Positions 9,013 through 30,426 of a stretch of DNA of 32,739 nucleotides are shown here, in pieces. The notes below the pieces were generated by a model. It worked only from the letters and a program-made list of their open reading frames with translations. It was not told the DNA's origin and ran no database searches. Location of the stretch: positions 1 to 32,739 of the forward strand of contig JAPLEZ010000093.1 of NCBI GenBank assembly GCA_026390935.1, given 5' to 3'. A program made the position numbers and the translations under genes. Origin of the DNA: Bacteroidota bacterium (GTDB lineage: Bacteria > Bacteroidota > Bacteroidia > Flavobacteriales_C > GCA-002722245). Each line of letters opens with the position of its first letter. Position 1 is the first letter of the stretch.

Positions 9013-9780
9013 ATGAAAAAAATATTCTCTATAAAGCAGCTCGTTGTATTATTGTCGCTTTTCATTTTTTCATCGGCCACCATTCCAGAAAAAAAAATAA
9101 CCATTGCCCTTGCCGCCAATGCACATTACGCTTTTAAAGAAATAGAAAAACAGTACGAAAAAGAAACAGGAAAAGAAATTGAACTCATCATCGCTTCGTC
9201 AGGAAAACTCAGCGCTCAAATTCGCGAAGGCGCACCTTTCGATATATTTTTGTCGGCCGACATGGTCTTCCCCAATCGCCTCCACAGTGAAGGTTTAACC
9301 GTGGGAGCGCCCAAGGTTTATGCCTACGGCAGTTTGGTGCTGTGGTCGTTAACTATTGGAGATGAATTAAACTTAAAAAGTTTACTCAGCAGCAAAGTAA
9401 AAACAATTGCCATCGCCAATCCGAAACTGGCACCATACGGAGTTGCCGCAATCGAAGTAATGAAATATTACAAAATGTATGATCAGCTTGAAAAAAAACT
9501 CGTTTATGGAGAAAGCATTTCGCAGGTAAATCAATACGTTTCATCTAATGCAGTCGATGTTGGGTTCACCGCCAAATCTGTAGTGATGAGTCCCGAAACA
9601 CAAGGCAAAGGTCGCTGGATTGACATCGACAAAAAAGCTTATTCTCCCATTGAGCAAGGCGCTGTTCTTTTAAAACATTCTAGCGGAAATAAAACAGACG
9701 CAGAAGCTTTTTACAATTATATTTACTCCACAAAAGCACAAACGATTTTAAAAAAGTACGGTTACCATTTTACAAAATGA
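9013..9780 (+). CDS. modA: Molybdate ABC transporter substrate-binding protein ModA
   Basis: 255 aa with a signal peptide over residues 1-22. The mature start KKITIALAANAHYAFKEIEKQYEKETGKEI and the SSGKLSAQIREGAPFDIFLSAD segment are typical of ModA. Its Ser residues in ASSGKL and the later APYGVAAIEVM stretch line the oxyanion site that binds molybdate or tungstate. The protein is predicted to sit in the periplasm and deliver oxyanion to ModB/ModC encoded just downstream. Its last codons overlap the next start by 4 bp (ATGA), showing translational coupling. Confidence 0.95.
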   Translation: MKKIFSIKQLVVLLSLFIFSSATIPEKKITIALAANAHYAFKEIEKQYEKETGKEIELIIASSGKLSAQIREGAPFDIFLSADMVFPNRLHSEGLTVGAPKVYAYGSLVLWSLTIGDELNLKSLLSSKVKTIAIANPKLAPYGVAAIEVMKYYKMYDQLEKKLVYGESISQVNQYVSSNAVDVGFTAKSVVMSPETQGKGRWIDIDKKAYSPIEQGAVLLKHSSGNKTDAEAFYNYIYSTKAQTILKKYGYHFTK

Positions 9781-10172
9781 ATCAACTTTTAGCGGAAATA
9801 ACAGAGATAAAAACAAGCGATGACCTGGCTTTGGTGAAGATGAAGTGTGAAGACGAAATTTTTTCTTCCCTCATCATCAGCAGAGATGATTCCATGAGCG
9901 TAGGCAAAAAAGTGTGGATGTCATTTAAAGAAACTGAAGTGATGCTGCGCGAAATTTCTGGCGAAGGAATCAGCATTAAAAACCGTTTTGCTTCCACTAT
10001 AAAAACGTTGCAAAAAGGAAAACTTTTGTGTGAAGTCATTTTGAATTACAAAGGACATTCCATCACTTCCATCATCACCAGCGAAAGCTGCGAGGCAATG
10101 AATTTATTTATAGGCAAGGAAGTAGAAGCGCTGGTAAAAACTAACGATTTAATGCTTATTCAACATCAATAA
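9777..10172 (+). CDS. Stand-alone di-Mop (tandem TOBE) molybdate-binding protein
   Basis: 131 aa, cytoplasmic, with no signal peptide. The second half (~66-131) is a clear Mop/TOBE domain: NRF-ASTIKTL, a G-K-L-CEV-L strand, ITSIITSES, MNLFIGKEVEALVKTNDLML. The first half (1-62) is a weaker copy of the same fold (LLAEITEIK...SLIISRDDSMSVGKKVWMSFKETEVML). Two tandem Mop domains occur at the C-terminus of ModE and in ModG-type molybdate storage proteins. Its position between modA and modB, coupled to both (4-bp overlap; 1-bp gap), points to molybdate buffering or sensing linked to uptake. No helix-turn-helix is present, so it is not a ModE repressor. Confidence 0.8.
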   Translation: MNQLLAEITEIKTSDDLALVKMKCEDEIFSSLIISRDDSMSVGKKVWMSFKETEVMLREISGEGISIKNRFASTIKTLQKGKLLCEVILNYKGHSITSIITSESCEAMNLFIGKEVEALVKTNDLMLIQHQ

Positions 10173-10173
10173 A

Positions 10174-10839
10174 ATGTGGGAGCCGCTGTTACTTTCTTTT
10201 AGCTTGTCGCTAATCACCACGGTGATTCTGCTGCTGATTGGCGTTCCGCTGGCTTACCGCTTGTCGCAAAGTAAAAGTCGATGGAAACCAGTTTATGAAA
10301 GTCTGATTTCCCTGCCCATGATTTTACCTCCCTCCGTGCTCGGATTTTATTTGCTGATCGCTTTCAGTCCGAATAATTTTTTTGGGAAATTTTTACAAGA
10401 ATATTTTGACATCCGCTTACTTTTTTCCTTTGAAGGATTAATTATTGCATCGGTCATTTACAGCTTGCCTTTTATGATTCATCCGATACAAGCAGGATTT
10501 CAAAATCTTTCTCCCTCTTTAAAAGACGCAGCTTACACGCTAGGAATTTCTCCGAGAAAAACTTTGTTACACATATTATTGCCCAACATTAAACCTGCTT
10601 TGCTCACCGGAATTGTACTCACTTTCGCACACACCGTTGGTGAATTTGGCGTGGTGATGATGATAGGCGGAAATATTCCGGGCGTTACCAAAGTAGCGTC
10701 ACTGGCCATTTACGATGAAGTAGAAAGCATGAATTACGATGCCGCAAATTTTTATTCGCTGGTTTTGCTAGCGCTTTCTTTCCTCATTTTATTTCTGCTT
10801 TTTGTGTTCAATAAAAAATGGAAATCTAAAATTTACTAG
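10174..10839 (+). CDS. modB: Molybdate ABC transporter permease ModB
   Basis: 221 aa with about five transmembrane segments. LISLPMILPPSVLGFYLLIAF and the EAA loop DAAYTLGISPRKTLLHILLPNIKPALLTG are the standard ModB/CysW-type permease features. The EAA loop docks onto the ATPase. The following TFAHTVGEFGVVMMIGGNIPG is highly characteristic of ModB. The ATG follows the Mop gene stop by 1 bp, and modC starts 1 bp after its stop, so the genes form one operon. Confidence 0.96.
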   Translation: MWEPLLLSFSLSLITTVILLLIGVPLAYRLSQSKSRWKPVYESLISLPMILPPSVLGFYLLIAFSPNNFFGKFLQEYFDIRLLFSFEGLIIASVIYSLPFMIHPIQAGFQNLSPSLKDAAYTLGISPRKTLLHILLPNIKPALLTGIVLTFAHTVGEFGVVMMIGGNIPGVTKVASLAIYDEVESMNYDAANFYSLVLLALSFLILFLLFVFNKKWKSKIY

Positions 10840-10840
10840 C

Positions 10841-11713
10841 ATGTTTGAAATTCAACTTTCCAAAAAACTTCATTCGGCGCAGGGCGACATGCTTTTAGAC
10901 ATCGACTTAAAAATTCCGGAAAAACAGTTTGTTTCAATTTACGGAAAGTCGGGTGCTGGAAAAACCACCTTACTAAAAATGCTCGCTGGAATTGTTCAAC
11001 CCGATAAAGGTAGCATCGTTTCAGGACAAGAAATTTGGTTCAACCACAACACGAATCTCTCTCCACAAAAAAGAAAAATCGGATTTGTGTTTCAAGACTA
11101 CGCACTTTTTCCAAATATGAATGTGCGCGAAAATTTAGAATTTGTTTTGACCGATAAAAAAAATAAAAACATTGTCGACGAGCTTCTTGAAATTACTTCA
11201 CTCACTGGCTTAGCACAAACTTCTGTCACTCAACTTTCAGGCGGACAACAGCAACGTGTTGCACTCGCAAGGGCTTTGGTGAAGCAGCCCGAGCTCTTAT
11301 TATTGGATGAACCGCTCTCCTCCCTCGATCATGAAATGCGTTGGAAATTGCAAGATGAGCTGATAAAAATTCACAAACATTTTCAACTCACCACCATCAT
11401 GATCAGTCACGACACATCGGAAATTTATCGCTTGTCGGATACGGTGATCAAAATGGATTTCGGAAAAATTATTCAGCAAGGATCTCCCGATGAATTGTTT
11501 CACAACAACAAAGTCTCAGGCAAAGTACAAATCACCGGACAGCTGATTTCCCTATCTAAAAATGATGTGGTGTACATCGCCAAAATATTGTCGGGCAACA
11601 ACCTCATGAACGTAATCATCACCGCCGAAGAAGCAGAAAAATTAAGTGTTGGCGATACGGTGTTGATAGTATCAAAAGCGTTTAATCCAACGGTGATGAA
11701 GTACAATTCATGA
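10841..11713 (+). CDS. modC: Molybdate ABC transporter ATP-binding protein ModC
   Basis: 290 aa from the ATG at 10841. A TTG at 10802 is in frame but lies inside modB, so the ATG one base after the modB stop is preferred. Walker A is GKSGAGKTT, the Q-loop is FQDYALF, the ABC signature LSGGQQQRVALARAL and Walker B LLLLDEPLSSLD, with the H-loop in MISHDTSE. The C-terminal ~65 residues (GKVQITGQLISL...VLIVSKAFNPTVM) look like a TOBE/Mop regulatory domain, shorter than in E. coli ModC (about 350 aa). It couples ATP hydrolysis to molybdate import. Confidence 0.94.
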   Translation: MFEIQLSKKLHSAQGDMLLDIDLKIPEKQFVSIYGKSGAGKTTLLKMLAGIVQPDKGSIVSGQEIWFNHNTNLSPQKRKIGFVFQDYALFPNMNVRENLEFVLTDKKNKNIVDELLEITSLTGLAQTSVTQLSGGQQQRVALARALVKQPELLLLDEPLSSLDHEMRWKLQDELIKIHKHFQLTTIMISHDTSEIYRLSDTVIKMDFGKIIQQGSPDELFHNNKVSGKVQITGQLISLSKNDVVYIAKILSGNNLMNVIITAEEAEKLSVGDTVLIVSKAFNPTVMKYNS

Positions 11714-12989: not shown

Positions 12990-14876
12990 CTACTCTTTTA
13001 CAAATTTTTGGTGCAACACTTTGTTGTATGCGCGAATGGTGATAATGTATATTCCTTTCGGCAAATCAATCGTACTAATTTTTATATGTGTGTTGTAAGT
13101 GTAAATACTTTCTACTAACTGTCCGGTAATATTATGAATATGCACTTCTTCAAGCGAGATGGAATTTTGAATATTTAATTCGTCGTCCACCGGATTAGGA
13201 TAAATTTTCAAGTCTTTAAAAAGACCTGGATTTTCAACAATCACTGTGCTTAAATCAGAAACCATACATATGTCATCGAAATAAAAAGCATTGCCTGTTG
13301 TTGCGCCAAAATCAAAGAACAAAGTAATTTTGTTATAGGTATTTGATGCTGATCCACTAAAATCAAATACCAACTCTTCCCAGGCATTCAACTGTGTTGT
13401 GGTTACCTCCACTTCCTTCATAGCATTTGAGTTGGCAGCGTCTTCCAATTTCATCAAAACCTTGCAAACTTTCGGACTATTCACTTTCATTTTAAAAAAT
13501 TTATTGACAGAAAAATCAATTTTAGAAGAGAGCGTTGCTGAGTAAATTCCCGCCCATGTTTGTGATGCAGCATCTTTCACACATTTTCCTACCATCGCAC
13601 TGGTATTGATTCCTGAAGGTGATGGATTAGCCACTTTAGAAAAATTACTTCCGCCGAATCCTGTAAAATTTAAATCTGTTGCGTCGTAATCCACAAAACA
13701 AACATCAGGGTTGTCCGACACTTTATAAGAACTCTCAGAAGAAGAGGAGTTATTTTCGTTATCAGTTGCTAACACTTTATAGTACACGGTGGAACCATCC
13801 ACTTGGGCCGGAATGGTTGCCGAATAAGTATCTCCGGAAGCAGTCATGGCAACACTATTGCTTAAATTCACAGAACTCAAACCCCATGAAAGTGTAACAG
13901 AAGAAATGCTTTTATCATCGGTAACAGTTGCCGAAACCGTTACTACATCTGTTGATTTTACTGCATTTGGCGTATTTTTCACAGCTGAAATCTGAGGAGA
14001 TGTTGGTGTAGCCATTTTGTAATCCATTATAAACTGAGAGGATGTGCCTGTTCTATAGGTATTGGTTAAGGGATTATAAGTATATGCGTAAATTTTATCT
14101 TCTGCCGGCTTGAAGGTGTAGTATCGTAAAAAACCATTCAAACTGCATTGATAATCCGACATGATTTCATGAATAGTGATCCCTGCCGCATTGGTATATG
14201 TGTTGTACCATTCCGGACCACAATAGTGTCCCGAAACAATAAGAAACACATTTGTGCTCTGTTTCGCCAAGTCGATAATTTTACCATTGTTTACATCATG
14301 AGTACTGATAATAGCTCTTTTATTTGGATATGCAGCAAGTTTTGCAACTGCCCAATTGTACTCAGCGGTACTCAAAGCATAACCTATGGAAATAACCATA
14401 AACTCCATGCCGGATGCATTAAAGAAACTTAAATTATTTTCGTTTTTCCCATTAGGATAAGTTTCAATCGCCCAGGAGTTTTGCATCCATGAGGAAGCAG
14501 GATAGTTTGAATTATAAATGTTCCAACTATCCGAACCCATTGGCAAGTCGGTGTCATGATTACCCGGAGCAATTGACCACGGAATTCCCGATGCTTCAAT
14601 TTTTTGCCAACCTGCTTTAAAACGCGTCCATTCATTGGTATTATCTGCATGATCTACTGCATCACCAACGTGACAAATGAACTGAATATTTAAGTTGTCT
14701 TTTTTTGCCGGTACCCAATCCATTTGTGCTGTAAACTGGTTAATGTTCGAGCCCATATAAGAAAAATCCATCACCTGAAATTGGGTATCAGGTATAATCA
14801 TTACCGTAAAGTCTTGAGCGACCAAATCTATTAGTGTCAAGAGAATTGAGAAAATCACGCTTAATATCCTTTTCAT
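12990..14876 (-). CDS. Secreted calcineurin-like metallophosphatase with T9SS type A sorting domain
   Basis: 628 aa from the ATG at 14876. A longer frame opens at 14942, but only the ATG at 14876 starts directly with a signal peptide (MKRILSVIFSILL...LVAQ). Residues ~22-290 form a metallophosphoesterase domain: IPDTQ, HVGDAVDH, APGNHDTD, STHDVN and VSGHYCG supply the metal-binding D, GD, GNHD and H residues. In the first motif Q stands where many members have H. A beta-sandwich module of FN3/Ig type (~295-385) and a carbohydrate-binding-like module (~395-540) follow. The last ~80 residues (IYPNPVDDELNI...LPKGIYIITIRA...KFVKE) are a type A T9SS sorting domain. The enzyme probably hydrolyses phosphate esters outside the cell; its substrate is unknown. 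Confidence 0.9.
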   Translation of the reverse strand: MKRILSVIFSILLTLIDLVAQDFTVMIIPDTQFQVMDFSYMGSNINQFTAQMDWVPAKKDNLNIQFICHVGDAVDHADNTNEWTRFKAGWQKIEASGIPWSIAPGNHDTDLPMGSDSWNIYNSNYPASSWMQNSWAIETYPNGKNENNLSFFNASGMEFMVISIGYALSTAEYNWAVAKLAAYPNKRAIISTHDVNNGKIIDLAKQSTNVFLIVSGHYCGPEWYNTYTNAAGITIHEIMSDYQCSLNGFLRYYTFKPAEDKIYAYTYNPLTNTYRTGTSSQFIMDYKMATPTSPQISAVKNTPNAVKSTDVVTVSATVTDDKSISSVTLSWGLSSVNLSNSVAMTASGDTYSATIPAQVDGSTVYYKVLATDNENNSSSSESSYKVSDNPDVCFVDYDATDLNFTGFGGSNFSKVANPSPSGINTSAMVGKCVKDAASQTWAGIYSATLSSKIDFSVNKFFKMKVNSPKVCKVLMKLEDAANSNAMKEVEVTTTQLNAWEELVFDFSGSASNTYNKITLFFDFGATTGNAFYFDDICMVSDLSTVIVENPGLFKDLKIYPNPVDDELNIQNSISLEEVHIHNITGQLVESIYTYNTHIKISTIDLPKGIYIITIRAYNKVLHQKFVKE

Positions 14877-14905
14877 AAATGAAAGTTTACGATTTGTTGT
14901 ATAGT

Positions 14906-14938
14906 TAAAGATATTGGAGAATGCTGGTGAAAATCCAA
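14906..14938 (-). promoter_or_regulatory. Possible promoter of the metallophosphatase gene
   Basis: On the minus strand TATCTTTA (14906-14913) differs from TAnnTTTG at one position. A TTG lies 22 bp upstream (14936-14938), within but at the long end of the usual spacing. Placed about 30 bp before the ATG at 14876. Confidence 0.35.
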
Positions 14939-15010
14939 CCAAAAAAGAGGGGGATTAGACAAACTCAAAATTAAAAATCCCTCTTGCCATCTCACCATAA
15001 CCATAGGCTC

Positions 15011-15143: not shown

Positions 15144-16493
15144 CTACTTGGTCACCGGAACATACCACACATCCTCTTCCAAATCAACACCGCCACCCAT
15201 TTCCTCCTGCACTACTCTATCCACAATAAAAACGCCTTTTTCCGCCATTTTCAAAAAGGTGTCGATGCCATTGTTTGGAAATCCAATACGAGTGCGATGA
15301 ATATTGAACTGATCAGCAAATTTTCTGTTGAATGCTTTTTCCACACCTTCCTTACCTAGCATAAATCCGAGCATTCCACCCCATGTTGCGGTTGGATTAT
15401 CGGAATCCCATCCAGCCAAAGCGCCAATTTTTATTGTTTCTACAATATCTCCTTCGCCATACAACAAACTGATGATGCTTGATGCGAAATTGATTCCACC
15501 TGCAAAACAGCCATTGCAATATCTGTTTTGAGAAGTGATGTTGTAACCATCCAATTGATCCACCTGATAACGTTGGTAAACTTCATCTCTCACCTGTTCC
15601 CAAGGAATATTAGCATCGTATCTGCTTTTCACGAAATCGAACATTTTAGCCGAATAAGAATCATTTGGCAAATGTTTTCGTGCTTCAAGCGCCATCCACA
15701 TAATTTTGTCCTTCATCAATTTTTTTTCATCCACAGATGAGGCTAAAGAATACATCGTTACATAATATTCGGAAATCCATTGTGCATTATTTCTTGCTGT
15801 AGTTTGAATAGGCAAGGCTGCCATTTTTAAAGCAATATCAGGACGTGCTGGAGCAAAGAAACCAAAAATTTCTGTGGTGAGTTGCGCATCAATCATTTCA
15901 AATTCGGGATTGTTTTTTGGATCACTGGTTTCGGGCGGAAGCATTCCAGCGCGCATCAAATCAAAAGCTTTTTGATTGGACACCCACAAATAATTTTCTT
16001 CTTCCACCTTAATGTGTTTCAACCAACCCTCCTTAATTTGCTGAGGACTTAGCATACTTGTTTTATTGGAAAACAAAAGATCCTGATAAATATATTCAAT
16101 GTCGGTATCGTCATCGGCACCCCAAATTTCTCCTGGATTTTTAAAAACAAAATCAATATTTTTCGACAAATCACTTGGCACGCCTTGTCCCCAAATACTT
16201 GGCTGATCGGGTTTTCCCCAATCGTTGCGGGTATAAAATGCTCCTGTTTTAATTTCACCGATGTTTCCAATTTTATCCATTTCAGTCACCAAACCCGTCC
16301 AATTGGCAATGCATTGTCCGAGCCAAAATCCTTGCAATTGATTTAAATATTTTGATCGGGAAATTTTTTTGTCGCTAGACTTTGGAACATATTTTTTGTA
16401 TTCAAAATCCTTATTTACCAATGAATTTTCGGGCGTTGCAGAAGTGCAAGCCAACATCAAAGCACAACAAATAAAAAAAATATTTTTTCGCAT
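15144..16493 (-). CDS. ADP-ribosylglycohydrolase-family lipoprotein
   Basis: 449 aa. A lipoprotein signal (MRKNIFFICCALMLAC, Cys16) places it in the envelope. The ARH fold is shown by DDDTD (127-131) and GWDSDN (361-366), the two aspartate clusters that hold the metal ions in this family, with the last followed by PTATWGGMLGFMLG. The first family motif, usually GxxxGDxxG, here reads GQCIANWTG (59-67), so the usual Asp is Asn. The enzyme probably hydrolyses an N- or O-glycosidic bond to ribose, in ADP-ribose conjugates or nucleosides. The gene lies 6 bp after a sugar porter gene and in one operon with ribokinase, which fits release of ribose outside the inner membrane. The substrate is inferred. 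Confidence 0.82.
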   Translation of the reverse strand: MRKNIFFICCALMLACTSATPENSLVNKDFEYKKYVPKSSDKKISRSKYLNQLQGFWLGQCIANWTGLVTEMDKIGNIGEIKTGAFYTRNDWGKPDQPSIWGQGVPSDLSKNIDFVFKNPGEIWGADDDTDIEYIYQDLLFSNKTSMLSPQQIKEGWLKHIKVEEENYLWVSNQKAFDLMRAGMLPPETSDPKNNPEFEMIDAQLTTEIFGFFAPARPDIALKMAALPIQTTARNNAQWISEYYVTMYSLASSVDEKKLMKDKIMWMALEARKHLPNDSYSAKMFDFVKSRYDANIPWEQVRDEVYQRYQVDQLDGYNITSQNRYCNGCFAGGINFASSIISLLYGEGDIVETIKIGALAGWDSDNPTATWGGMLGFMLGKEGVEKAFNRKFADQFNIHRTRIGFPNNGIDTFLKMAEKGVFIVDRVVQEEMGGGVDLEEDVWYVPVTK

Positions 16494-16499
16494 GATTTC

Positions 16500-17492
16500 T
16501 TATTTTGATAAAATAATTACGAGCAATCCCGACACGTAAAACAAAAACATACACGCAATTAAAATATTGGTGATGCGTGGTGCATTTTTAAATTCCTTCC
16601 AAATAAAAACGCCCCAAATTGCAGCAATCAAAGTAGCGCCTTGTCCCAATCCATAAGAGATGGCGAAGCCCGCCTTCCCCGATGCGATGATATTGAATGC
16701 TGTACCAATACCCCAAATTAAGCCTCCTAAAATACCAGCCAAATGACTTTTTCTGCTGCCACTAAAATAATCGCTGTAGCTTACAGGATTTCCAGCGAAA
16801 GGCCTTTTCATTAAAATAGTATTGAATAAAAAATTACTAATCAATGCGCCTAAAACCATCACCACAAAAGCAGTATAAGGAGTTAGCATCCCTGCTTCTG
16901 GAGCAGAAAAATCGGGAGAAATTCCCTTCGCAACAAAAGGATAAAACGAGCCCATTAGCACTCCACTAACGACCGACAGCGCAATTCCTTTGCTTGACAC
17001 TTTGGTGCCTGCAGTAGCTTTGCGATACGCAGCAGCAGTAAATAAAATAGCTACCATCACCATCACCACTCCTAAAATTAAAAGTAAAAAATCACCCATT
17101 GGCGCCAGCATATAATTTAGCAAAACACCCAAAATTAAAGCGATGCCAATGCCCACCGGAAAGGCCACCGCCATGCCTGCTAAATTGAGTGCAGCCACCA
17201 ACAAAATATTGGCAAGATTGAAAATTATGCCACCAATAAATGCCGAGAGTAAATTAGAACTTTCGGCCTGATTTATATCAGTGGCGAATGATCGTCCAGC
17301 CTCTCCACTACTTCCTAAAGTAAAGGCCAGCACTATTGAAAAGAGGAACATCCCTAAAATGTAATCCCAATAAAACAATTCAAATCTCCAGTTTTTATCG
17401 GCCAACTTTTGTGTGTTCGCCCAAGAGCCCCAGCACAACATTGTGATGATGCAAAACAAAACGGCACTTCCGTAACTTTCTACTATAAACAT
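16500..17492 (-). CDS. GRP-family (glucose/ribose porter-like) sugar permease, DMT superfamily
   Basis: 330 aa with about ten hydrophobic helices. The N-terminal region ITMLCWGSWANTQKL followed by WRFELFYWDYILG is a strong signature of the Bacteroidota branch of the glucose/ribose porter family, related to RbsU/GlcU and RhaT. The Gly-rich GLIWGIGTAFNIIASGKAG and SYGLGQGATLIAAIWGVFIWKE stretches are further family traits. It should carry a free sugar across the inner membrane. It sits 9 bp after the ribokinase stop and 6 bp before the ADP-ribosylglycohydrolase-like gene, so ribose is the likeliest cargo. Confidence 0.85.
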   Translation of the reverse strand: MFIVESYGSAVLFCIITMLCWGSWANTQKLADKNWRFELFYWDYILGMFLFSIVLAFTLGSSGEAGRSFATDINQAESSNLLSAFIGGIIFNLANILLVAALNLAGMAVAFPVGIGIALILGVLLNYMLAPMGDFLLLILGVVMVMVAILFTAAAYRKATAGTKVSSKGIALSVVSGVLMGSFYPFVAKGISPDFSAPEAGMLTPYTAFVVMVLGALISNFLFNTILMKRPFAGNPVSYSDYFSGSRKSHLAGILGGLIWGIGTAFNIIASGKAGFAISYGLGQGATLIAAIWGVFIWKEFKNAPRITNILIACMFLFYVSGLLVIILSK

Positions 17493-17501
17493 ATTTTTTT
17501 C

Positions 17502-18425
17502 TTAAGCGGTAAATGTAGTTTCTGCGATTTCCTTTTTGTAAGGAATTGAACTTTGCGCACCCATTCTGGTAACAGAAATGGAGGCAGCACGCACAGCAAA
17601 TTCCACTGCTTCTTTGATGCTTAATTTTTCTGATAAAGCTACCGACAATGCGCCATTGAAAACATCGCCCGCCGCAGTGGTATCAATTGCTTTTACTTTA
17701 GGCGCAGAAACTGTTCCGGTGAATTCATCCGACAAAATAAATGCGCCGTTGGAGCCCATAGTAATGATCACATTTTTCACACCACGGGCTCTTATTTTTT
17801 CAGCCGCTTTTTTTGCAGATGCAACGTCGCTTACTGTAATGCCTGATAAAATTGCTGCTTCGGTTTCATTTGGGGTGATGACGAAAACAGTTTTCAATAA
17901 TTCATCAGACAATTTAGTAGCGGGTGCTGGATTTAAAATAAATTTTTTACCTGCTGCCAATGCCGATTTACCAATGAATTCAACAGTATCCATTGGAATT
18001 TCCAATTGCGTTATAACAATTTCCGCAGCTTGTATAACTGCAGCAGCACGTTGAATATCGTCAACATTTAATGCGCTATTTGCACCAGGCGCAACCACTA
18101 TACTATTTTCACCTTTATCGTCGACAGAAATCAACGCAACACCCGATGGATTTTGCGGATCGGCCACAATTAAAGAGGTGTCAATACCTTCTTTTTTAAA
18201 AGTGAAAACAGCTTGCTTCCCAAACAAATCATTGCCTACACGAGCAATGAAAAGCACAGCTCCTCCTAAGCGAGAGGCAGCAACGGCCTGATTGGCTCCT
18301 TTGCCTCCCGGATTCATAAAGAATTTTTTACCCATTACGGTTTCACCCGGTTTTGGTAGTTTTTCTGATTGGATCACCATATCAGAGTTACTGCTTCCTA
18401 TCACTATTATTTTTGCTGCGCTCAT
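17502..18425 (-). CDS. rbsK: Ribokinase (PfkB family)
   Basis: 307 aa, normal for RbsK. GSSNSDMVIQ at the N-terminus, the substrate-binding NPGGKGANQAVAASRLGG, the ATP-site PNETEAAIL and the anion-hole/catalytic DTTAAGDVFNGAL (catalytic Asp in AAGD) are all present. It phosphorylates D-ribose to ribose 5-phosphate. It is the first gene of a three-gene operon with a sugar porter and a ribosyl-hydrolase-like lipoprotein, so incoming ribose would be trapped by this enzyme. A good Bacteroidota promoter lies just upstream. Confidence 0.93.
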   Translation of the reverse strand: MSAAKIIVIGSSNSDMVIQSEKLPKPGETVMGKKFFMNPGGKGANQAVAASRLGGAVLFIARVGNDLFGKQAVFTFKKEGIDTSLIVADPQNPSGVALISVDDKGENSIVVAPGANSALNVDDIQRAAAVIQAAEIVITQLEIPMDTVEFIGKSALAAGKKFILNPAPATKLSDELLKTVFVITPNETEAAILSGITVSDVASAKKAAEKIRARGVKNVIITMGSNGAFILSDEFTGTVSAPKVKAIDTTAAGDVFNGALSVALSEKLSIKEAVEFAVRAASISVTRMGAQSSIPYKKEIAETTFTA

Positions 18426-18442
18426 AATTTTTGTTCTTTACT

Positions 18443-18472
18443 CAAAGATAGTTGGCGACTCAAAAAACACAA
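18443..18472 (-). promoter_or_regulatory. Bacteroidota-type promoter of the rbsK operon
   Basis: On the minus strand TATCTTTG (18443-18450) is a perfect TAnnTTTG -7 box with a TTG (18470-18472) exactly 19 bp upstream. This is the same spacing as at the YceI promoter. It lies about 20 bp before the rbsK ATG. Confidence 0.65.
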
Positions 18473-18523
18473 GTCCTCTTTTTGGTTGATACAGACAATC
18501 ATAAAAGTTTAAAAACAACACAA

Positions 18524-20035
18524 CTATCTGGAATTAAACTTTTTACTTAACAAGGAAACAAAACTCTGTTTTGAAATTTTTGCTTCCAACCAGCAGTCGA
18601 AATCAAACAATTTCGTCATTTGTTCCTCTTCATTTAAAGAACGGAAATCCCTTTGACAAGCAAGCAGACATTTTTTTTCTGATGCTTCATCATTGGCTTT
18701 TATCACATTTCTAAAGAATTTAAAGAGCATTTTTTCCAAACGAAACAAAGTACCATGCTTTTTTAATTTGCGCTCAAAGCCCCGTATTTCATAGTTGATG
18801 TATTCGTGATTTTCCATTTCGTAATGCACCAGCAAAGCCACCATCCTGCTCATCGTCACATATTCCTGTGAAACCAAAGTGGTGTCATTATTCAATATCA
18901 AGTTTAAAGAATACAGACAATTTTTCCATTCTTTCAATCCGAAATAAACTATGGCATTGTAGTAAAACACTTTGGCGTTGGCTACCGACAATACCGATTT
19001 GGAGCGTTTTGTAAATTGATCTTTGTGCGACAACAACACTTTTTTTGCTTCCTCAAAATTCCCTTGTCCGATATGAAAAATGATTTCAAACTGATAAATC
19101 AACGCCCACAATTGCTCTTCTTCACGATCTTTCTGATTTAAGTTTTTCAGCTTATCAATAAAAAAGGGAAGCGCTTCATAACTACCAATGGCTTGCAAAT
19201 TATTTAATATGCCTTCCACTACATATATATAATAGAGTGCGTTTTCTTCCCACAAAAAAGAATATTTTTGGAAGAGTTCATCGAGCTCACGGTAAATATC
19301 CAAACTCAATTCCGGACTCCCGATCAAGCGGAAATACACCGATTGAAAAAGCATGTGCAACTGCTGAGAATGAAAAGAATGATAATGCGGATTGGAAATT
19401 AAACTGGATTCCGACAAAACCAAATCGTCAAATTTTTGCTTTTCTTCTTCACTGCGAACAACGCCCTTTTGTACAAAACGGTGCAAAAGCAATTGGTACA
19501 AATCGGCGTGAGCGCTAATGTGCATTTCGTGCTCTACCAATGAACGAATGAGAGATTGTTTTTCTATTAAATCCTCTTCACTTACATTCAAAAAATCGGT
19601 GCGAGTGTAATATTCCAATTCCAAATTGGCAGCTTCTAAAAAGTAATAATTTTTCTCGTGCTTCTTGGCCAATACTTTCACTTTTTCCAGTTGCGACAAG
19701 CACTCGGCATAAACACCTTTTTTATATAAGAAACGCGCTTCCTGCAATAAGCGCAACAAAACAGCATCAATGTTTTGATCGGCATCATATGCCCTCATAC
19801 TTTTCATCAACACCTTGAAAAGATATTTCAATGTAACTTCAAAAGAAGCTTTTTTTGCTTGTGCTTCAAATTGTTGCTTGAGTTCCGATCGATCGGTAAT
19901 TCCTTTATCGATTAAATCAAAGAGCACCAAATAAAATTTATCTCCTTCCTGAATGGAGGAGAATAATTTAAAATAGCGTTTCTCTGATTTGCTTAAGGAA
20001 CAAACCAATAAAACAACATCACTAATTTTTGCCAT
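18524..20035 (-). CDS. Large alpha-helical (TPR-like) protein of unknown function
   Basis: 503 aa with no signal peptide and no catalytic motif that I can recognise. The whole length looks like paired amphipathic helices with A/Y/L patterns (for example GVYAECLSQLEKVKVLAKKH, FEEAKKVLLSHKDQF, AKVFYYNAIVYFGLKEWKNC), which suggests tetratricopeptide-type repeats. The N-terminus (ISDVVLLVCSLSKSEKRYFKLFS) resembles a conserved opening of uncharacterised Bacteroidota proteins. It stands alone between the rbsK operon and a divergent pirin gene. A scaffolding or regulatory role is possible but not shown by the sequence. Confidence 0.75.
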   Translation of the reverse strand: MAKISDVVLLVCSLSKSEKRYFKLFSSIQEGDKFYLVLFDLIDKGITDRSELKQQFEAQAKKASFEVTLKYLFKVLMKSMRAYDADQNIDAVLLRLLQEARFLYKKGVYAECLSQLEKVKVLAKKHEKNYYFLEAANLELEYYTRTDFLNVSEEDLIEKQSLIRSLVEHEMHISAHADLYQLLLHRFVQKGVVRSEEEKQKFDDLVLSESSLISNPHYHSFHSQQLHMLFQSVYFRLIGSPELSLDIYRELDELFQKYSFLWEENALYYIYVVEGILNNLQAIGSYEALPFFIDKLKNLNQKDREEEQLWALIYQFEIIFHIGQGNFEEAKKVLLSHKDQFTKRSKSVLSVANAKVFYYNAIVYFGLKEWKNCLYSLNLILNNDTTLVSQEYVTMSRMVALLVHYEMENHEYINYEIRGFERKLKKHGTLFRLEKMLFKFFRNVIKANDEASEKKCLLACQRDFRSLNEEEQMTKLFDFDCWLEAKISKQSFVSLLSKKFNSR

Positions 20036-24135: not shown

Positions 24136-25467
24136 ATGAACATTGCCGTAATTGGTACCGGATACGTTGGATTAGTCACAGGAACCTGCTTTGCAGAAAG
24201 CGGCAACAATGTGATTTGTGTTGACAACAACAAAGACAAAGTAGAAAAATTAAAACAAGGCATCATTCCCATTTATGAGCCTGAGCTTGATGCTTTGCTT
24301 GAGCGCAATGCCAAGCAAAATCGTGTGCAGTTTACTACTGATTTGGAAGATGCTGTAAAAAAATCATCTATCATTCTTTTAGCGCTTCCTACCCCTCCGG
24401 GAGAAGATGGTTCTGCTGATTTATCCTACATTTTAGGTGTTGCCGAACAATTAGGAAAAATCATCACCGAGTATAAAGTAATTGTACACAAAAGCACAGT
24501 GCCTGTTGGTACTGCTGAAAAGGTAAGTGCTGTTATCAAAAAAAATAGTTCTGTTGATTTCGATGTGGTGTCAAACCCCGAATTTTTAAGAGAAGGTTTT
24601 GCAGTGAATGATTTCATGAAACCCGACCGCGTGGTGATTGGCGTTAGAAATGAAAGAGCAAGAAAAGTGATGGAAGAATTGTACAAACCCTTCGTTCGTC
24701 AGGGCAATCCCATCTATTTCATGGATGAGCGTTCGGCCGAATTAACGAAATATGCAGCCAATGCTTTTCTGGCTGTAAAAATTTCTTTCATGAATGAAAT
24801 CGCTAATTTGTGCGAACTCGTGGGTGCCGATGTGGATCAAATCAGAATTGGAATTGGTTCCGACACCAGAATAGGCAAGCGCTTTCTTTTCCCTGGTATC
24901 GGCTACGGTGGAAGCTGCTTTCCAAAAGACGTGAAAGCATTGATTAAATCTTCTAAAGATGTGAATTACAATTTCAAAATTCTCAACGCTGTAGAAGAAG
25001 TAAACTCTACACAAAAAACCATCATCGTTCCTAAAATAGAAGACTATTTTGAAGGCGACTTAAAAGGAAAAACTTTTGGCATCTGGGGCTTGGCTTTCAA
25101 ACCAAACACCGATGATATTAGAGAAGCACCGGCAATGTACGTAATTGAAGAACTCTTGAAAAAAGGCGCGAAAATAAAAGCCTTTGATCCAGAAGGAATG
25201 GAAAACATGAAAGTTGTTTTCGGAAATAAAATTGAGTTTTGCGACAATCAATATGATGCCATTTCAGGTGCAGATGCTTTGGTCATCGCAACTGAATGGT
25301 CGGTTTTCCGAGCTCCCGATTTTGAAAAAATGAAAGAGTTGTTAAAAACTCCTGTGATATTTGACGGCAGGAATTTATTCGATCTTGAAAGTATTCAGGC
25401 GAAAGGATTCGACTATATCAGCATAGGAAGAACACAAGTAGTGAACAAAAAAGCTCTTGCTAAATAA
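24136..25467 (+). CDS. ugd: UDP-glucose 6-dehydrogenase
   Basis: 443 aa. Rossmann start MNIAVIGTGYVGLVTGTCFAE, the middle ALPTPPGEDGSADLSYI, VHKSTVPVGTAEKV, NPEFLREGFAV, and the catalytic Cys in GIGYGGSCFPKDVKAL are all conserved. The C-terminal domain has FGIWGLAFKPNTDDIREAPA. It oxidises UDP-glucose twice to UDP-glucuronate with NAD+. It starts 6 bp after the aminotransferase. The UXS-type gene after it could use its product. Confidence 0.95.
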   Translation: MNIAVIGTGYVGLVTGTCFAESGNNVICVDNNKDKVEKLKQGIIPIYEPELDALLERNAKQNRVQFTTDLEDAVKKSSIILLALPTPPGEDGSADLSYILGVAEQLGKIITEYKVIVHKSTVPVGTAEKVSAVIKKNSSVDFDVVSNPEFLREGFAVNDFMKPDRVVIGVRNERARKVMEELYKPFVRQGNPIYFMDERSAELTKYAANAFLAVKISFMNEIANLCELVGADVDQIRIGIGSDTRIGKRFLFPGIGYGGSCFPKDVKALIKSSKDVNYNFKILNAVEEVNSTQKTIIVPKIEDYFEGDLKGKTFGIWGLAFKPNTDDIREAPAMYVIEELLKKGAKIKAFDPEGMENMKVVFGNKIEFCDNQYDAISGADALVIATEWSVFRAPDFEKMKELLKTPVIFDGRNLFDLESIQAKGFDYISIGRTQVVNKKALAK

Positions 25468-25546
25468 AATGAAATATACATTATTCCATAAAATGGATTT
25501 TTCTATTATGATATTCCATCTGACATTTAAAAAATTATAGACGCAG

Positions 25547-26521
25547 ATGAAAAAACGAATATTAGTTACCGGAGCAGCAGGATTTTTAGGATCTCATCTT
25601 TGTGAAAGATTTTTAAAAGAAGGCTATAATGTGATTGGCATGGACAATCTGATCACCGGTAATTTAAGAAATATTGAAGATTTTTTTCGCAACCAGCATT
25701 TTGAATTTTACCACCACGATGTAAGTACTTTTGTGCATGTTCCGGGTAAACTGGATTACATCCTTCACTTCGCATCACCGGCCAGTCCGATAGATTATCT
25801 TAAAATTCCGATTCAGACTTTAAAAGTTGGTTCACTAGGAACACACAACCTGCTTGGACTGGCAAAGGAAAAAAAATCACGAATGCTCATCGCATCCACT
25901 TCTGAGGTTTACGGCGACCCAACAGTTCATCCTCAACCCGAGGAATATTGGGGAAATGTAAATCCTATTGGTCCGCGCGGTGTTTACGATGAAGCCAAAA
26001 GATTTCAGGAAGCCTTGACGATGGCCTATCATACTTATCACGGATTAGACACACGCATTGTACGGATATTCAATACTTACGGACCGAAAATGCGCTTGAA
26101 TGACGGCCGCGCTTTACCTGCCTTTGTTGGTCAGGCCTTGCGCGGAGAAGACATCACGGTTTTCGGCGACGGCTCACAAACACGCTCGTTTTGTTATGTT
26201 GACGATCTTGTAGAGGGCGTCTACCGCTTGTTGTTAAGCGATTATCATTTGCCAGTAAACATTGGTAATCCAGATGAAATTTCCATCGCCGAATTTGCAG
26301 AAGAAATTGTAAAACTCACTGGCACAACAGCAAAAGTAATATACAAAGATTTACCTGTGGATGACCCGAAACAACGTCAACCCGACATCAGCAAAGCCAA
26401 AGAAATATTGGACTGGGAGCCAAAAGTAAATCGTGCAGAAGGATTAAAAAAAACATTGGAGTATTTTAAATCACTCCCTAAAGATGAACTGTTTAAAAAA
26501 GAATTAAGTTTTGGAAACTAA
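25547..26521 (+). CDS. UDP-glucuronate decarboxylase-like NAD-dependent SDR (UXS type)
   Basis: 324 aa, extended SDR. The dinucleotide site is [15 protein letters not shown], with catalytic STSEVYGDP and Y-x-x-x-K in [46 protein letters not shown] and [16 protein letters not shown] are strong signatures of UDP-xylose synthase. It should convert UDP-GlcA, made by the ugd gene just upstream, to UDP-xylose or its 4-keto intermediate. The 79-bp spacer before it is longer than most in this operon and contains a motif also found before the last epimerase gene. It overlaps the next gene by 11 bp. Confidence 0.88.
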
Positions 26522-27098
26522 AGAATTTTTTGTTCATCCTTCTTCCTATATTGACGAGGGCTGCATCATTGGAAAAGGTACTAAAATATGGCACTTTAGT
26601 CATGTTATGCCCAACTCCACTATTGGAGAAAACTGTAATATCGGGCAGAATGTAATTGTGTCTCCAGAAGTAGTTTTAGGCAACAATGTAAAAATTCAAA
26701 GCAATGTTTCATTGTATACTGGAGTAATTTGTGAAGACGATGTTTTCCTTGGACCATCGATGGTTTTCACCAATGTGATGAATCCTCGTTCTGCTGTAAA
26801 CAGAAAAAATGAATACCGCAAAACCATAGTAAAAAAAGGTGCTACTATCGGTGCCAACGCTACCATTGTTTGTGGAATACAATTGGGCGAATATTGTTTT
26901 ATTGGCGCAGGCACGGTGGTGATTCGCTCAGTAAAAGCTTATTCCATCATGGTTGGAAATCCTGCCAAACAAATTGGCTGGATGAGTGAACAAGGCGAAA
27001 AATTAGTTTTCAATGAAAACAATGAAGCCGTGTGCAAAGCAACAGGTGAAAAATATTTGCTATTGAATGGCAACGTAAAAAAACTAAGTAATGGCTGA
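26511..27098 (+). CDS. Left-handed beta-helix N-acetyltransferase (WbpD-like)
   Basis: 195 aa using a TTG start at 26511 that overlaps the previous gene. No ATG fits, since the first one is about 30 residues inside the hexapeptide domain. The [42 protein letters not shown] start and the hexapeptide repeats are typical of WbpD/WlbB. The [32 protein letters not shown] and [14 protein letters not shown] segments also match that family. The reaction is probably acetyl-CoA-dependent N-acetylation of UDP-GlcNAc(3NH2)A at the 3-amino group. Confidence 0.88.
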
Positions 27099-28110
27099 TA
27101 AAATTAAATTTGCGGTGATTGGTTGTGGCCACATCGGAAAACGCCATATGGAAATGATCCGTAGAGATCCCGAAGCGGAACTAATGGCTTTTTGTGATGT
27201 AAAGGAAAGATCAGCACTGAACATCGATCTGAAATTCACTCAGCCCTACTTTACCGACATTGACGATATGTTAAAGGCAATTCCTGAAATTGATGTTGTT
27301 AATATCTGCACCCCTAATGGTCTCCACGCCAAACAAAGCATTAAAGCATTAAACTACAATAAACATATCGTTTGTGAAAAGCCAATGGGGCTCACTAAAA
27401 ATGAATGTGAAAAAGTACTTGAAAAAGCACTCGACGTTTCAAAAAAAGTGTTTTGCGTAATGCAAAACCGTTATTCTCCTCCTTCTGTTTGGTTAAAGGA
27501 GATTATGGACAAAAAATTATTGGGAGATGTCTTTATCGTTCAATTGAACTGCTACTGGAACAGAGACGACCGTTATTACAAAAAAGACACCTGGAAAGGC
27601 AGTAAAGATATGGATGGAGGCACTTTGTTCACGCAATTTTCTCACTTCATCGATATCATGTATTGGCTATTTGGCGACATCACTGATATAAGAGCAAGAT
27701 TTGAAGATTTCACCCATCAACACTCCACAGAATTTGAAGATACCGGCATTGTAAACTTCCGCTTTTTAAATGGAGGAATAGGCACAATGAATTACTCTAC
27801 TGCCATTTACGATGTCAACTTGGAAAGCAGCATGACGGTGATTGGAAGCAAAGGCAGTGTAAAAGTGGGCGGACAGTACATGGATAAAATTGAGTACTGC
27901 AACATTAAAGATTATACAATGCCTGAATTGGCACCAGTCAACGCTCCAAATGATTACGGCGATTACAAAGGCTCTGCTGCCAATCACCACTATATCATCC
28001 AAAATGTAATCAACACTATTAAACGAGGAGATAAAGTAACCACCAACGCTTTGGAAGGCTTAAAAGTGGTTGAAATAATTGAAAGAATTTATTCATTAAA
28101 AGAGAAGTAA
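27091..28110 (+). CDS. Gfo/Idh/MocA oxidoreductase (WbpB-like, UDP-GlcNAcA 3-dehydrogenase)
   Basis: 339 aa. The Rossmann motif is [12 protein letters not shown] and the EKP signature is [50 protein letters not shown] is diagnostic of the WbpB/WlbA branch. These enzymes oxidise UDP-GlcNAcA at C3 with NAD+, giving the keto sugar for a WbpE-type aminotransferase. The start overlaps the upstream gene by 8 bp, and the following gene begins 5 bp after the stop. Together with the aminotransferase, acetyltransferase and HexNAc dehydrogenase genes it completes a four-step pathway. Confidence 0.9.
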
Positions 28111-28115
28111 AAGTT

Positions 28116-29408
28116 ATGATTTCCGAAAGAATTGCAAAGAAAGAAGCCAAATTAGCATTGATCGGCTTAGGTTATGTAGGATTACCCATTGCGCTGGAAT
28201 TTGCCAGAAAAGTAAAAGTGGTAGGATTTGATATCAATCCCGATCGCGTTAAATTAATGCAGCAAGGAATTGACCCTAGTAACGAATTAGATAAATCTGA
28301 ATTCGATGGTTGTGATATTCAATTCAGTGCAAATATTGAAGATTTACGTGATGTAAATTTTTTCATCGTAGCTGTTCCAACTCCTATTGATCAGCATAAT
28401 TTACCCGATTTAAAACCTTTGCTTTCTGCTTCTAAAACAGTAGGAAAAGTTTTGAAAAAAGGGGATTACGTTGTATTTGAATCTACAGTATATCCTGGAT
28501 GTACAGAAGAAGATTGTGTTCCGGTTTTAGAGCAGGAATCAGGATTAAAATTCGGCGTAGATTTTAAAGTGGGTTATTCTCCTGAGAGAATCAATCCGGG
28601 CGACAAAGAACATACGCTTTCTAAAATTGTAAAAGTGGTTTCAGGCTGCGATAAAGAATCGGCAGAACAAGTAGCCAACGTATATAAAATGGTGATCAAC
28701 GCCGGAGTTCATCAAGCGTCATCGATCAAAGTTGCTGAAGCTGCAAAAATTATTGAGAACACGCAACGTGATGTGAATATCGCTTTAATGAACGAGCTTT
28801 CGTTGATCTTTAGCAAAATGAACATCAATACTTATGAGGTTCTGGAAGCTGCAGGAACAAAATGGAATTTCTTGAAATTTTCTCCTGGATTGGTGGGCGG
28901 ACATTGTATTGGTGTTGACCCTTACTACCTTACCTACAAAGCAGAAGAATTAGGAATTCATTCTAAAATCATTACCTCTGGAAGAGCCATCAACGACTCA
29001 ATGGGACCATACTTGGCGCGATTGGCAGTGAAAAAAATGATCACCCTCGGAAAAGATATTGCTAAAGTAAGAGTATTGGTAATGGGCACAACTTTCAAGG
29101 AAAACGTAACAGATATCCGTAACTCAAAAGTAGCCGATGTGGTGAACGAGTTAAAATCTTTCGCCATCAACGTTGAAGTAAACGATCCTCATGCCGATTC
29201 GCATGAAGTTCAAGAAGAATATGGTTATGCCTTAACTCCAGAAATCACTGGACAATACGACGCCATCATTGTTGCTGTGAACCACAAAGAATACATTGGC
29301 TTGAAAGATGATTTCTTCAAAAAACATTTAAATACAAATGGTGTTTTGGTGGACATCAAAGGCATTTATAGAAACTCAGTGAAAACCGAACATTACATTA
29401 GTTTATAA
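28116..29408 (+). CDS. UDP-N-acetyl-hexosamine 6-dehydrogenase (WbpA/WbpO/TviB family)
   Basis: 430 aa. Rossmann start LALIGLGYVGLPIALEFA, VPTPID, ESTVYPGCTEE, VGYSPERINPGDKEH and the catalytic Cys in GLVGGHCIGVDPYYL mark the UDP-HexNAc branch, as opposed to the UDP-glucose enzyme earlier in the operon. It oxidises UDP-GlcNAc or UDP-GalNAc to the uronic acid. Next to WbpB/WbpE/WbpD-like genes, UDP-GlcNAc is the likeliest substrate. The sequence is also close to TviB, and a TviC/WbpP-like epimerase lies downstream, so UDP-GalNAcA formation is an alternative. Confidence 0.9.
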   Translation: MISERIAKKEAKLALIGLGYVGLPIALEFARKVKVVGFDINPDRVKLMQQGIDPSNELDKSEFDGCDIQFSANIEDLRDVNFFIVAVPTPIDQHNLPDLKPLLSASKTVGKVLKKGDYVVFESTVYPGCTEEDCVPVLEQESGLKFGVDFKVGYSPERINPGDKEHTLSKIVKVVSGCDKESAEQVANVYKMVINAGVHQASSIKVAEAAKIIENTQRDVNIALMNELSLIFSKMNINTYEVLEAAGTKWNFLKFSPGLVGGHCIGVDPYYLTYKAEELGIHSKIITSGRAINDSMGPYLARLAVKKMITLGKDIAKVRVLVMGTTFKENVTDIRNSKVADVVNELKSFAINVEVNDPHADSHEVQEEYGYALTPEITGQYDAIIVAVNHKEYIGLKDDFFKKHLNTNGVLVDIKGIYRNSVKTEHYISL

Positions 29409-29409
29409 A

Positions 29410-30426
29410 ATGATTTTAGTCACCGGCGCAACAGGTTATATAGGTTCTCATACCGTGGTTGAATTGATCAGCCATGGCTATAGCGTTGTTGCGTTGGACG
29501 ATTTATCAACTTCTCGGGCCTCTACCATTGATGCCATTGAAAGCATCACTGGTGTTAAAGTTCCCTTTGAAAAAATTGATTTAAAAGACAAAGCAGCACT
29601 ATTAAAAATAGTTGGAAAATATCCAATTGATGGAGTCATCCATTTTGCAGCTCACATGGCTGTTGGTGAATCAGTTTTAAATCCATTAAAGTATTATGAA
29701 AATAATCTTTGCGGATTGCTCAATCTTTTTCATTTCATGGACCAAAGCGGATGCAAAAATTTAATTTTTTCTTCTTCCTGCACAGTTTATGGAGAAGTAA
29801 ATAAAGTTCCGGTAACCGAGGATTTTCCTACGCAACGTCCACCTTCTCCTTATGGAAACACAAAAAAAATTGCAGAAGAAATTATTGAAGATCTCGCTGC
29901 TACCAATAAATTAAAATCGATTTGTTTGCGCTATTTCAATCCCATTGGCGCACATCCATCGGGCTTGCTGGGTGAAAATCCCGACAACATGAACAACCTC
30001 ATGCCACTGCTTTTAAAAGTAGCATCAGGAAAAATGGAAAGTCTAAAAGTTTTTGGCAACGACTATAAAACCAGAGACGGCTCCTGTGTTCGCGATTATA
30101 TTCATGTGATGGATTTGGCAACAGCTCATGTTAAAGCGTACCAAAGATTGGCAGCAAAGGAAAGCGCTGTAGCAGTAGAAAAATTTAACCTCGGATCAGG
30201 AAATGGATTCACTGTTTTGGAAATGATTCACGCTTTTGAAAAAGTAAACGGAATCAAAATCAACTACAAAATAGAAGACCGTCGTCCTGGTGATGCAGCT
30301 GAAATTTTTTCTGATTCAAAACTGGCTGCTGAAAAATTAAAATGGAAAACAGAACGCTCTCTGGAAGACATGCTTTCATCGGCATGGAACAGGGAAAAAA
30401 CATACCGACAAAATGAACTACGCTAA
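29410..30426 (+). CDS. galE: UDP-glucose 4-epimerase
   Basis: 338 aa. TGATGYIGSHTVVELISHGY, HFAAHMAVGESVLNPLKYYENN, SSSCTVYGE and YGNTKKIAEEII (Y-x-x-x-K) are classic GalE. LRYFNPIGAHPSGLLGE and the R-D-Y-I-H-V-M-D-L-A-x-A-H motif confirm it. It interconverts UDP-glucose and UDP-galactose (possibly also the N-acetyl forms), supplying galactose units to the polymer. It starts 1 bp after the previous stop and overlaps the next gene by 14 bp. Confidence 0.94.
   Translation: MILVTGATGYIGSHTVVELISHGYSVVALDDLSTSRASTIDAIESITGVKVPFEKIDLKDKAALLKIVGKYPIDGVIHFAAHMAVGESVLNPLKYYENNLCGLLNLFHFMDQSGCKNLIFSSSCTVYGEVNKVPVTEDFPTQRPPSPYGNTKKIAEEIIEDLAATNKLKSICLRYFNPIGAHPSGLLGENPDNMNNLMPLLLKVASGKMESLKVFGNDYKTRDGSCVRDYIHVMDLATAHVKAYQRLAAKESAVAVEKFNLGSGNGFTVLEMIHAFEKVNGIKINYKIEDRRPGDAAEIFSDSKLAAEKLKWKTERSLEDMLSSAWNREKTYRQNELR

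Follow-up and report, generated by a model that had tools for sequence, protein, structure and literature searches.

A compact three-gene operon in a Bacteroidota genome joins a ribokinase and a DMT-superfamily porter to an exported ADP-ribosylglycohydrolase-family lipoprotein and probably serves ribose salvage

Among the closest described systems is the Rus locus of the gut bacterium Bacteroides thetaiotaomicron (BT2803-2809), which one report presents as needed for ribose use, with RusT proposed as the importer of free ribose (PMC12596196). A table of Rus components in a second paper lists a ribokinase, a TonB receptor, a SusD, a DUF4969 protein, a nucleoside hydrolase and a DMT permease (PMC10434189). 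Two further trios have been described: staphylococcal SERP2216-2218 place an ADP-ribosylglycohydrolase (ARH), a permease and a ribokinase side by side (PMC3637587, PMC3900703), and E. coli yegTUV is described as an operon of a transporter, an ARH and a kinase without clear function (PMC10819704). A literature search pairing ARH with polysaccharide utilization found nothing.

Here, we describe an operon in a Bacteroidota genome that carries the Rus-type set of a ribokinase (RbsK), a DMT-type porter and an exported ARH-type protein; we refer to the whole 32,739-nucleotide stretch of DNA that was analysed as the window. Compared by locus composition, the two loci share a ribokinase and a DMT-type permease (PMC10434189, PMC12596196). 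Rus differs in possessing SusC, SusD and a nucleoside hydrolase: a SusC/SusD pair is absent from the window operon, whose flanking open reading frames encode a metallophosphoesterase and a 503-aa protein, and its own genome has no match to nucleoside hydrolase (IunH, PF01156). We take BT2807 of the Rus locus to be an ARH-family protein, which would extend the likeness to a third component. The window operon is a reduced, unusual Rus-like variant that lacks SusC, SusD and IunH and has its own ARH subfamily, which we call ARH1 (our name for the subfamily of the window lipoprotein, distinct from human ARH1). SERP2216-2218 resemble it in that the same three functions adjoin, but their permease is annotated in the cytosine/purine/allantoin family, their host is Gram-positive and they lie in SCC-type or integrated elements (PMC3637587, PMC3900703). 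The yegTUV genes likewise combine a transporter, an ARH and a PfkB-type kinase in a single operon, but YegT is an NHS-type transporter, and YegU, in which the TDDT and GGDTDT motifs are retained, gives no match to the ARH1 profile (E 0.37). With the composition of Rus known and trios already published from staphylococci and E. coli, the original prediction's suggestion that the operon would put ARH enzymes to a different use is not a new idea.

All three genes lie on the minus strand. First comes rbsK, encoding a 307-aa ribokinase (17502-18425), followed after 9 bp by the gene for the 330-aa DMT-superfamily porter (16500-17492) and, 6 bp past that, by the gene for the 449-aa ARH1-type exported lipoprotein (15144-16493), exactly the three genes with 6-9-bp gaps that had been predicted. 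The single strong promoter predicted alongside them stands only in modified form: a sigma-70 scan gave 19 sites against 17.9 expected, which is chance level, and placed none in front of rbsK, so that a sigma-70 promoter is rejected, whereas the window has a TATCTTTG box, which we take to be the Bacteroidota -7 promoter type, some 20 bp ahead of rbsK, and two congeners (L007 and L008) share it in that position. In the window the box falls within an upstream region (18426-18530, minus strand) that is a candidate Bacteroidota-type promoter. The gene order rbsK-porter-ARH1 is identical in these two loci, and porter, RbsK and ARH1 also occur together in six further loci (L013, L016, L031, L036, L037 and L051), which argues that the arrangement did not arise by chance. 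An Rfam scan of the whole window gave no match.

The protein named RbsK is a true ribokinase. It scores 373.2 bits against the ribokinase model TIGR02152 (cut-off 299.65), passes both ribokinase equivalog cut-offs, and has as its best solved match the ribokinase 4x8f (E 3.1e-78, phmmer). Its residues are identical to those of E. coli RbsK at N14, D16, G42, K43, N46, E143 and D255, presumably the ribose-binding and catalytic positions, and all 10 of the RbsK proteins tested from other loci also exceed the TIGR02152 cut-off. For the porter, which had been predicted to be a GRP-type, ribose-type sugar permease, the family assignment has to be revised. Both Pfam matches above cut-off, Ureide_permease (PF07168, E 9e-21, the best) and Sugar_transport (PF06800, E 2.1e-11), are accompanied by a score of 54.2 bits against the RhaT model of the GRP/RhaT sugar porter family (TIGR00776), well under its cut-off of 319.6, and a PDB sequence search returned nothing meaningful. 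The porter's structure model (pLDDT 81.3) has the DMT fold and resembles LicB, CMP-sialic acid and nucleotide-sugar transporters, with a Foldseek probability of 1.00 to LicB, the CMP-sialic acid transporter and others, so that DMT permease is the better description and "ribose-type" comes from genetic linkage. Because the best Pfam match is to ureide permeases and the RhaT cut-off is missed, we read the porter's cargo from its neighbours, which point to ribose.

The lipoprotein was correctly placed in the ADP-ribosylglycohydrolase family: it matches PF03747 (E 2.9e-23, 83.4 bits against a gathering score of 26.2), and its sequence shows a lipobox, LMLAC, after a hydrophobic stretch. A lipobox regular expression is satisfied in 44 of 67 ARH1 open reading frames, some of which have misplaced starts or are cut. 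PDB searches with the single sequence and with a profile found no match, and since the sequence is too distant for such a match, we turned to fold comparison. The structure model (pLDDT 88.2, pTM 0.89) has the all-helical ARH fold and aligns best with ARH3 (6g1p; VIA-align Z 27.3, 304 residues, rmsd 2.9), with further matches to DraG (Z 23.9) and human ARH1 (Z 23.0). The window protein is the one ARH of its own genome and, as no IunH was matched there, would be the genome's sole hydrolase of the ARH and IunH families.

Across 33 aligned ARH1 members, D127, D128, D129, T130, D131, D363, D365 and N366 never vary and E71 hardly does; E71, D128, D129, D363 and D365 are invariant when ARH1 is aligned with YegU and with ARH2, a sister subfamily of about 515 aa that matches the ARH1 profile at E 3e-22 to 9e-26 and bears the motifs YDD and GQDxDCNP. 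We take E71 to be the catalytic glutamate and the acidic pairs (DD and DxD) to be the metal ligands of known ARHs. In the alignment D127 and N366 occupy both threonine positions of YegU; the replaced threonines (TDD and DxDT, as in ARH3) are presumably also ARH metal ligands. The first-helix GD motif is missing in ARH1 by comparison with YegU. Retention of the glutamate and acidic pairs together with replacement of the threonines suggests, at the level of sequence, that ARH1 and ARH2 probably still have a metal site, in altered form.

Ribose salvage is supported best by the exchange of ARH types with nucleoside hydrolase in the gene neighbourhoods of the porter. In a sample of 395 genomes from the phylum, the porter was found in 13, at 14 places, and we examined the 13 places outside the window's own genome. 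RbsK is encoded near the porter at 10 of them (L099-L108) and is absent near the other three (L098, L109 and L110); a hydrolase lies within 5 kb at nine of the ten porter-RbsK places, the exception being L107. The identity of that hydrolase varies: IunH alone at four places (L100, L101, L102 and L105), ARH2 at three (L099, L103 and L104, the last but one in the order RbsK, porter, SusC, SusD, ARH2), ARH2 with IunH at L106, and ARH1 with IunH at L108. The N-termini of all three partner hydrolases, ARH1, ARH2 and IunH, read as export signals. RbsK and porter are thus a constant pair, and the third part switches among ARH1, ARH2 and nucleoside hydrolase. Co-occurrence across genomes depends on how broadly the ARH is defined: of the 12 other genomes with the porter, 9 contain some ARH match, against 21 of the 382 that lack it (p 5e-9), while close ARH1 alone gives a weak co-occurrence (3/12 against 15/382, p 0.014), the porter being absent from 15 of the 18 close-ARH1 genomes other than the window's own in the 395-genome sample. 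ARH2 (at least 53% identity) is present in 8 of the 395 genomes and shares a locus with RbsK in five of these. Within a sample of ten genomes from the order, porter and RbsK are found in exactly the same three, each time with ARH1 adjoining; ARH1 itself is found in five, two of which, among the five genomes of a sister genus, have neither porter nor RbsK.

Seen from ARH1, the linkage recurs and is optional. Porter and RbsK are both present at 8 of 48 named ARH1 loci, and L039 adds RbsK alone, so that the neighbourhood check proposed for Bacteroidota contradicts the possibility that the three genes never co-occur elsewhere. We scored linkage on an ARH1 tree of 60 rows, of which 11 were linked (including L039, with RbsK and no porter), 40 were not linked (meaning that the genes are absent from the fetched stretch) and 9 were unscored because their flanks were too short; identical copies, L003 and L004 (from the same genomes as L007 and L008) and fragments (L012, L047, L048, L049, L054 and L127) had been left out beforehand. 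Of the 51 informative loci, 40 therefore carry ARH1 without these partners. Linkage needs eight changes on the tree, at least four of which are imposed by starred branches, and it shows some clustering (a count as low came up in 9 of 500 shuffles), indicating that the partnership of ARH1 with RbsK and porter formed or broke several times. Members of the subfamily also occur in Cellvibrio and Gilvimarinus (Pseudomonadota) and in a Marinimicrobia genome (L040, L042 and L046), so ARH1 crosses phyla.

We propose that this compact three-gene operon probably releases ribose on the outer side of the inner membrane, takes it up and phosphorylates it. The exported, lipid-anchored ARH1 would act on a compound arriving in the periplasm and break its glycosidic bond to ribose, the DMT porter would carry the free ribose across the inner membrane, and RbsK would convert it to ribose-5-phosphate for the pentose-phosphate pathway. 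A hydrolase activity of ARH1 on a ribosyl substrate is what we infer from this setting. Because the bonds cut by ARH enzymes are alpha and those cut by nucleoside hydrolases beta, an alpha-riboside is the likeliest substrate class, with ADP-ribose conjugates as one putative case, and at loci that encode both enzyme types (L106, L108 and L016) their activities may be complementary. This role, which the original prediction had outlined, is favoured by the true ribokinase, the conserved porter linkage and the alternation of ARH with nucleoside hydrolase, and it is weakened by the occurrence of ARH1 mostly without ribose genes. The 40 of 51 loci without ribose genes, the glucanase neighbours described below and the replacement of both presumed threonine ligands all count against a role dedicated to ribose. 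On balance, a ribose-salvage operon with ARH1 as its ribosidase is the reading we consider somewhat better than even. It would suggest that a fold familiar chiefly from the reversal of ADP-ribosylation, that of the ARHs, has repeatedly served as an exported sugar-releasing enzyme in Bacteroidota, and that next to one porter and one kinase an exported ARH and a nucleoside hydrolase may stand in for each other. The small size of the three-gene version allows a direct test of which riboside it serves.

It is possible, though we hold it with clearly lower confidence, that ARH1 is instead a glycosidase of the envelope, or a protein that processes glycans, with a specificity that is broader or different. 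Its association with RbsK and porter in some lineages would then be one use among several, and in the window it may act on a non-nucleotide sugar conjugate. The loci without ribose genes fit such a protein, as do its neighbours: GH17, GH128-type, GH3, GH5, GH31, GH30 or GH9 genes adjoin ARH1 in L010, L013, L017, L048, L051 and L127, Gfo/Idh/MocA oxidoreductase genes adjoin it in L009 and L115, and elsewhere FG-GAP proteins and a DUF7133-cytochrome protein are found beside it. Its repeated re-linkage to RbsK and porter on the tree and the interchange of ARH with IunH nevertheless favour a ribosyl substrate at the linked loci. Since ARH1 also exists outside ribose loci, it may have a wider specificity, or one that varies between clades. 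In L017 (3921-12417), ARH1 lies within a beta-glucan-type cluster with GH17, GH128-type, GH3 and GH5 genes, and phmmer shows a similar one in L111; a pure ribosidase role leaves these clusters unexplained.

Only tentatively can the ribose-salvage reading be sharpened to one in which ARH1 and ARH2 are exported nutritional ribosidases for alpha-linked ribosides, their metal site remodelled and their locus accompanied by a dedicated regulator of about 500 aa; such enzymes would cut ADP-ribose conjugates, alpha-nucleotides and corrinoid lower ligands where nucleoside hydrolases cannot. An unlikely alternative is that the porter's cargo is a nucleoside, nucleobase or ureide and that RbsK uses ribose made inside the cell: the porter's leading match to ureide permeases and its shortfall against RhaT would suit such a cargo, but the export-signal N-termini of ARH1, ARH2 and IunH make sense with free ribose as cargo, and the proposal that RusT transports free ribose would by analogy of locus composition favour the same (PMC12596196). 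ADP-ribosylation signalling as the main role, with the ARH protein acting as a signal eraser or immunity-like factor that removes ADP-ribose from envelope proteins, is a weak candidate that we consider very improbable, since against the fold match to ARH3, human ARH1, DraG and an immunity-type ARH stand an operon shared with a porter and a sugar kinase, the failure of Pfam to reveal an ADP-ribosyltransferase in the neighbours it covered, and loss of the GD motif and threonine ligands.

Returning to the ribose-salvage operon, the gene upstream of rbsK may belong to the same locus. It encodes a 503-aa protein without a Pfam match (18524-20035, minus strand) and is separated from rbsK by a 98 bp gap. 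Its family is broad, with matches in 91 of 395 genomes, but the four best matches outside the window's own genome (in G356, G380, G262 and G171; E 1e-71 to 2e-49) all adjoin a porter-RbsK locus, in the opposite direction, and the next-best matches, from 1e-37 downward, are from genomes that yielded no porter, or sit on other contigs. A stop-codon-bearing remnant of the gene lies near RbsK-ARH2 in G258, and one copy in the family has weak TPR matches. We regard the 503-aa gene as a specific partner and candidate fourth member of the ribose locus, and as a putative regulator of ribose salvage.

Directly downstream of ARH1, a secreted metallophosphoesterase with a Por secretion tail (12990-14942, minus strand; PF00149 3.3e-8, PF18962 8e-12) is a possible associate of the operon, and a homologue also adjoins ARH1 in L007. 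Further phosphoesterases flank ARH1 in L010, L013, L025, L027, L033 and L051. Such neighbours may hint at a phosphorylated substrate, although their count is biased: phosphoesterases make up 7 of 248 genes near ARH1 against 1 of 477 far from it (p 0.003), an enrichment that is circular and carries no weight because the query proteins were picked for their nearness to ARH1, from about three lineages. In Marinilabilia salmonicolor (L037, 9596-10966, plus strand), an apiosidase-like protein is encoded directly after a LacI-type regulator, porter, ARH1 and RbsK. Elsewhere in the window, the plus strand carries a molybdate-like binding-protein ABC transporter with a TOBE-domain protein (9013-11713), a similar set following ARH1 in L007 as read from N-termini, and genes for a UDP-sugar dehydrogenase, an epimerase and Gfo/Idh/MocA proteins (24136-30426) that probably form a surface-polysaccharide cluster.
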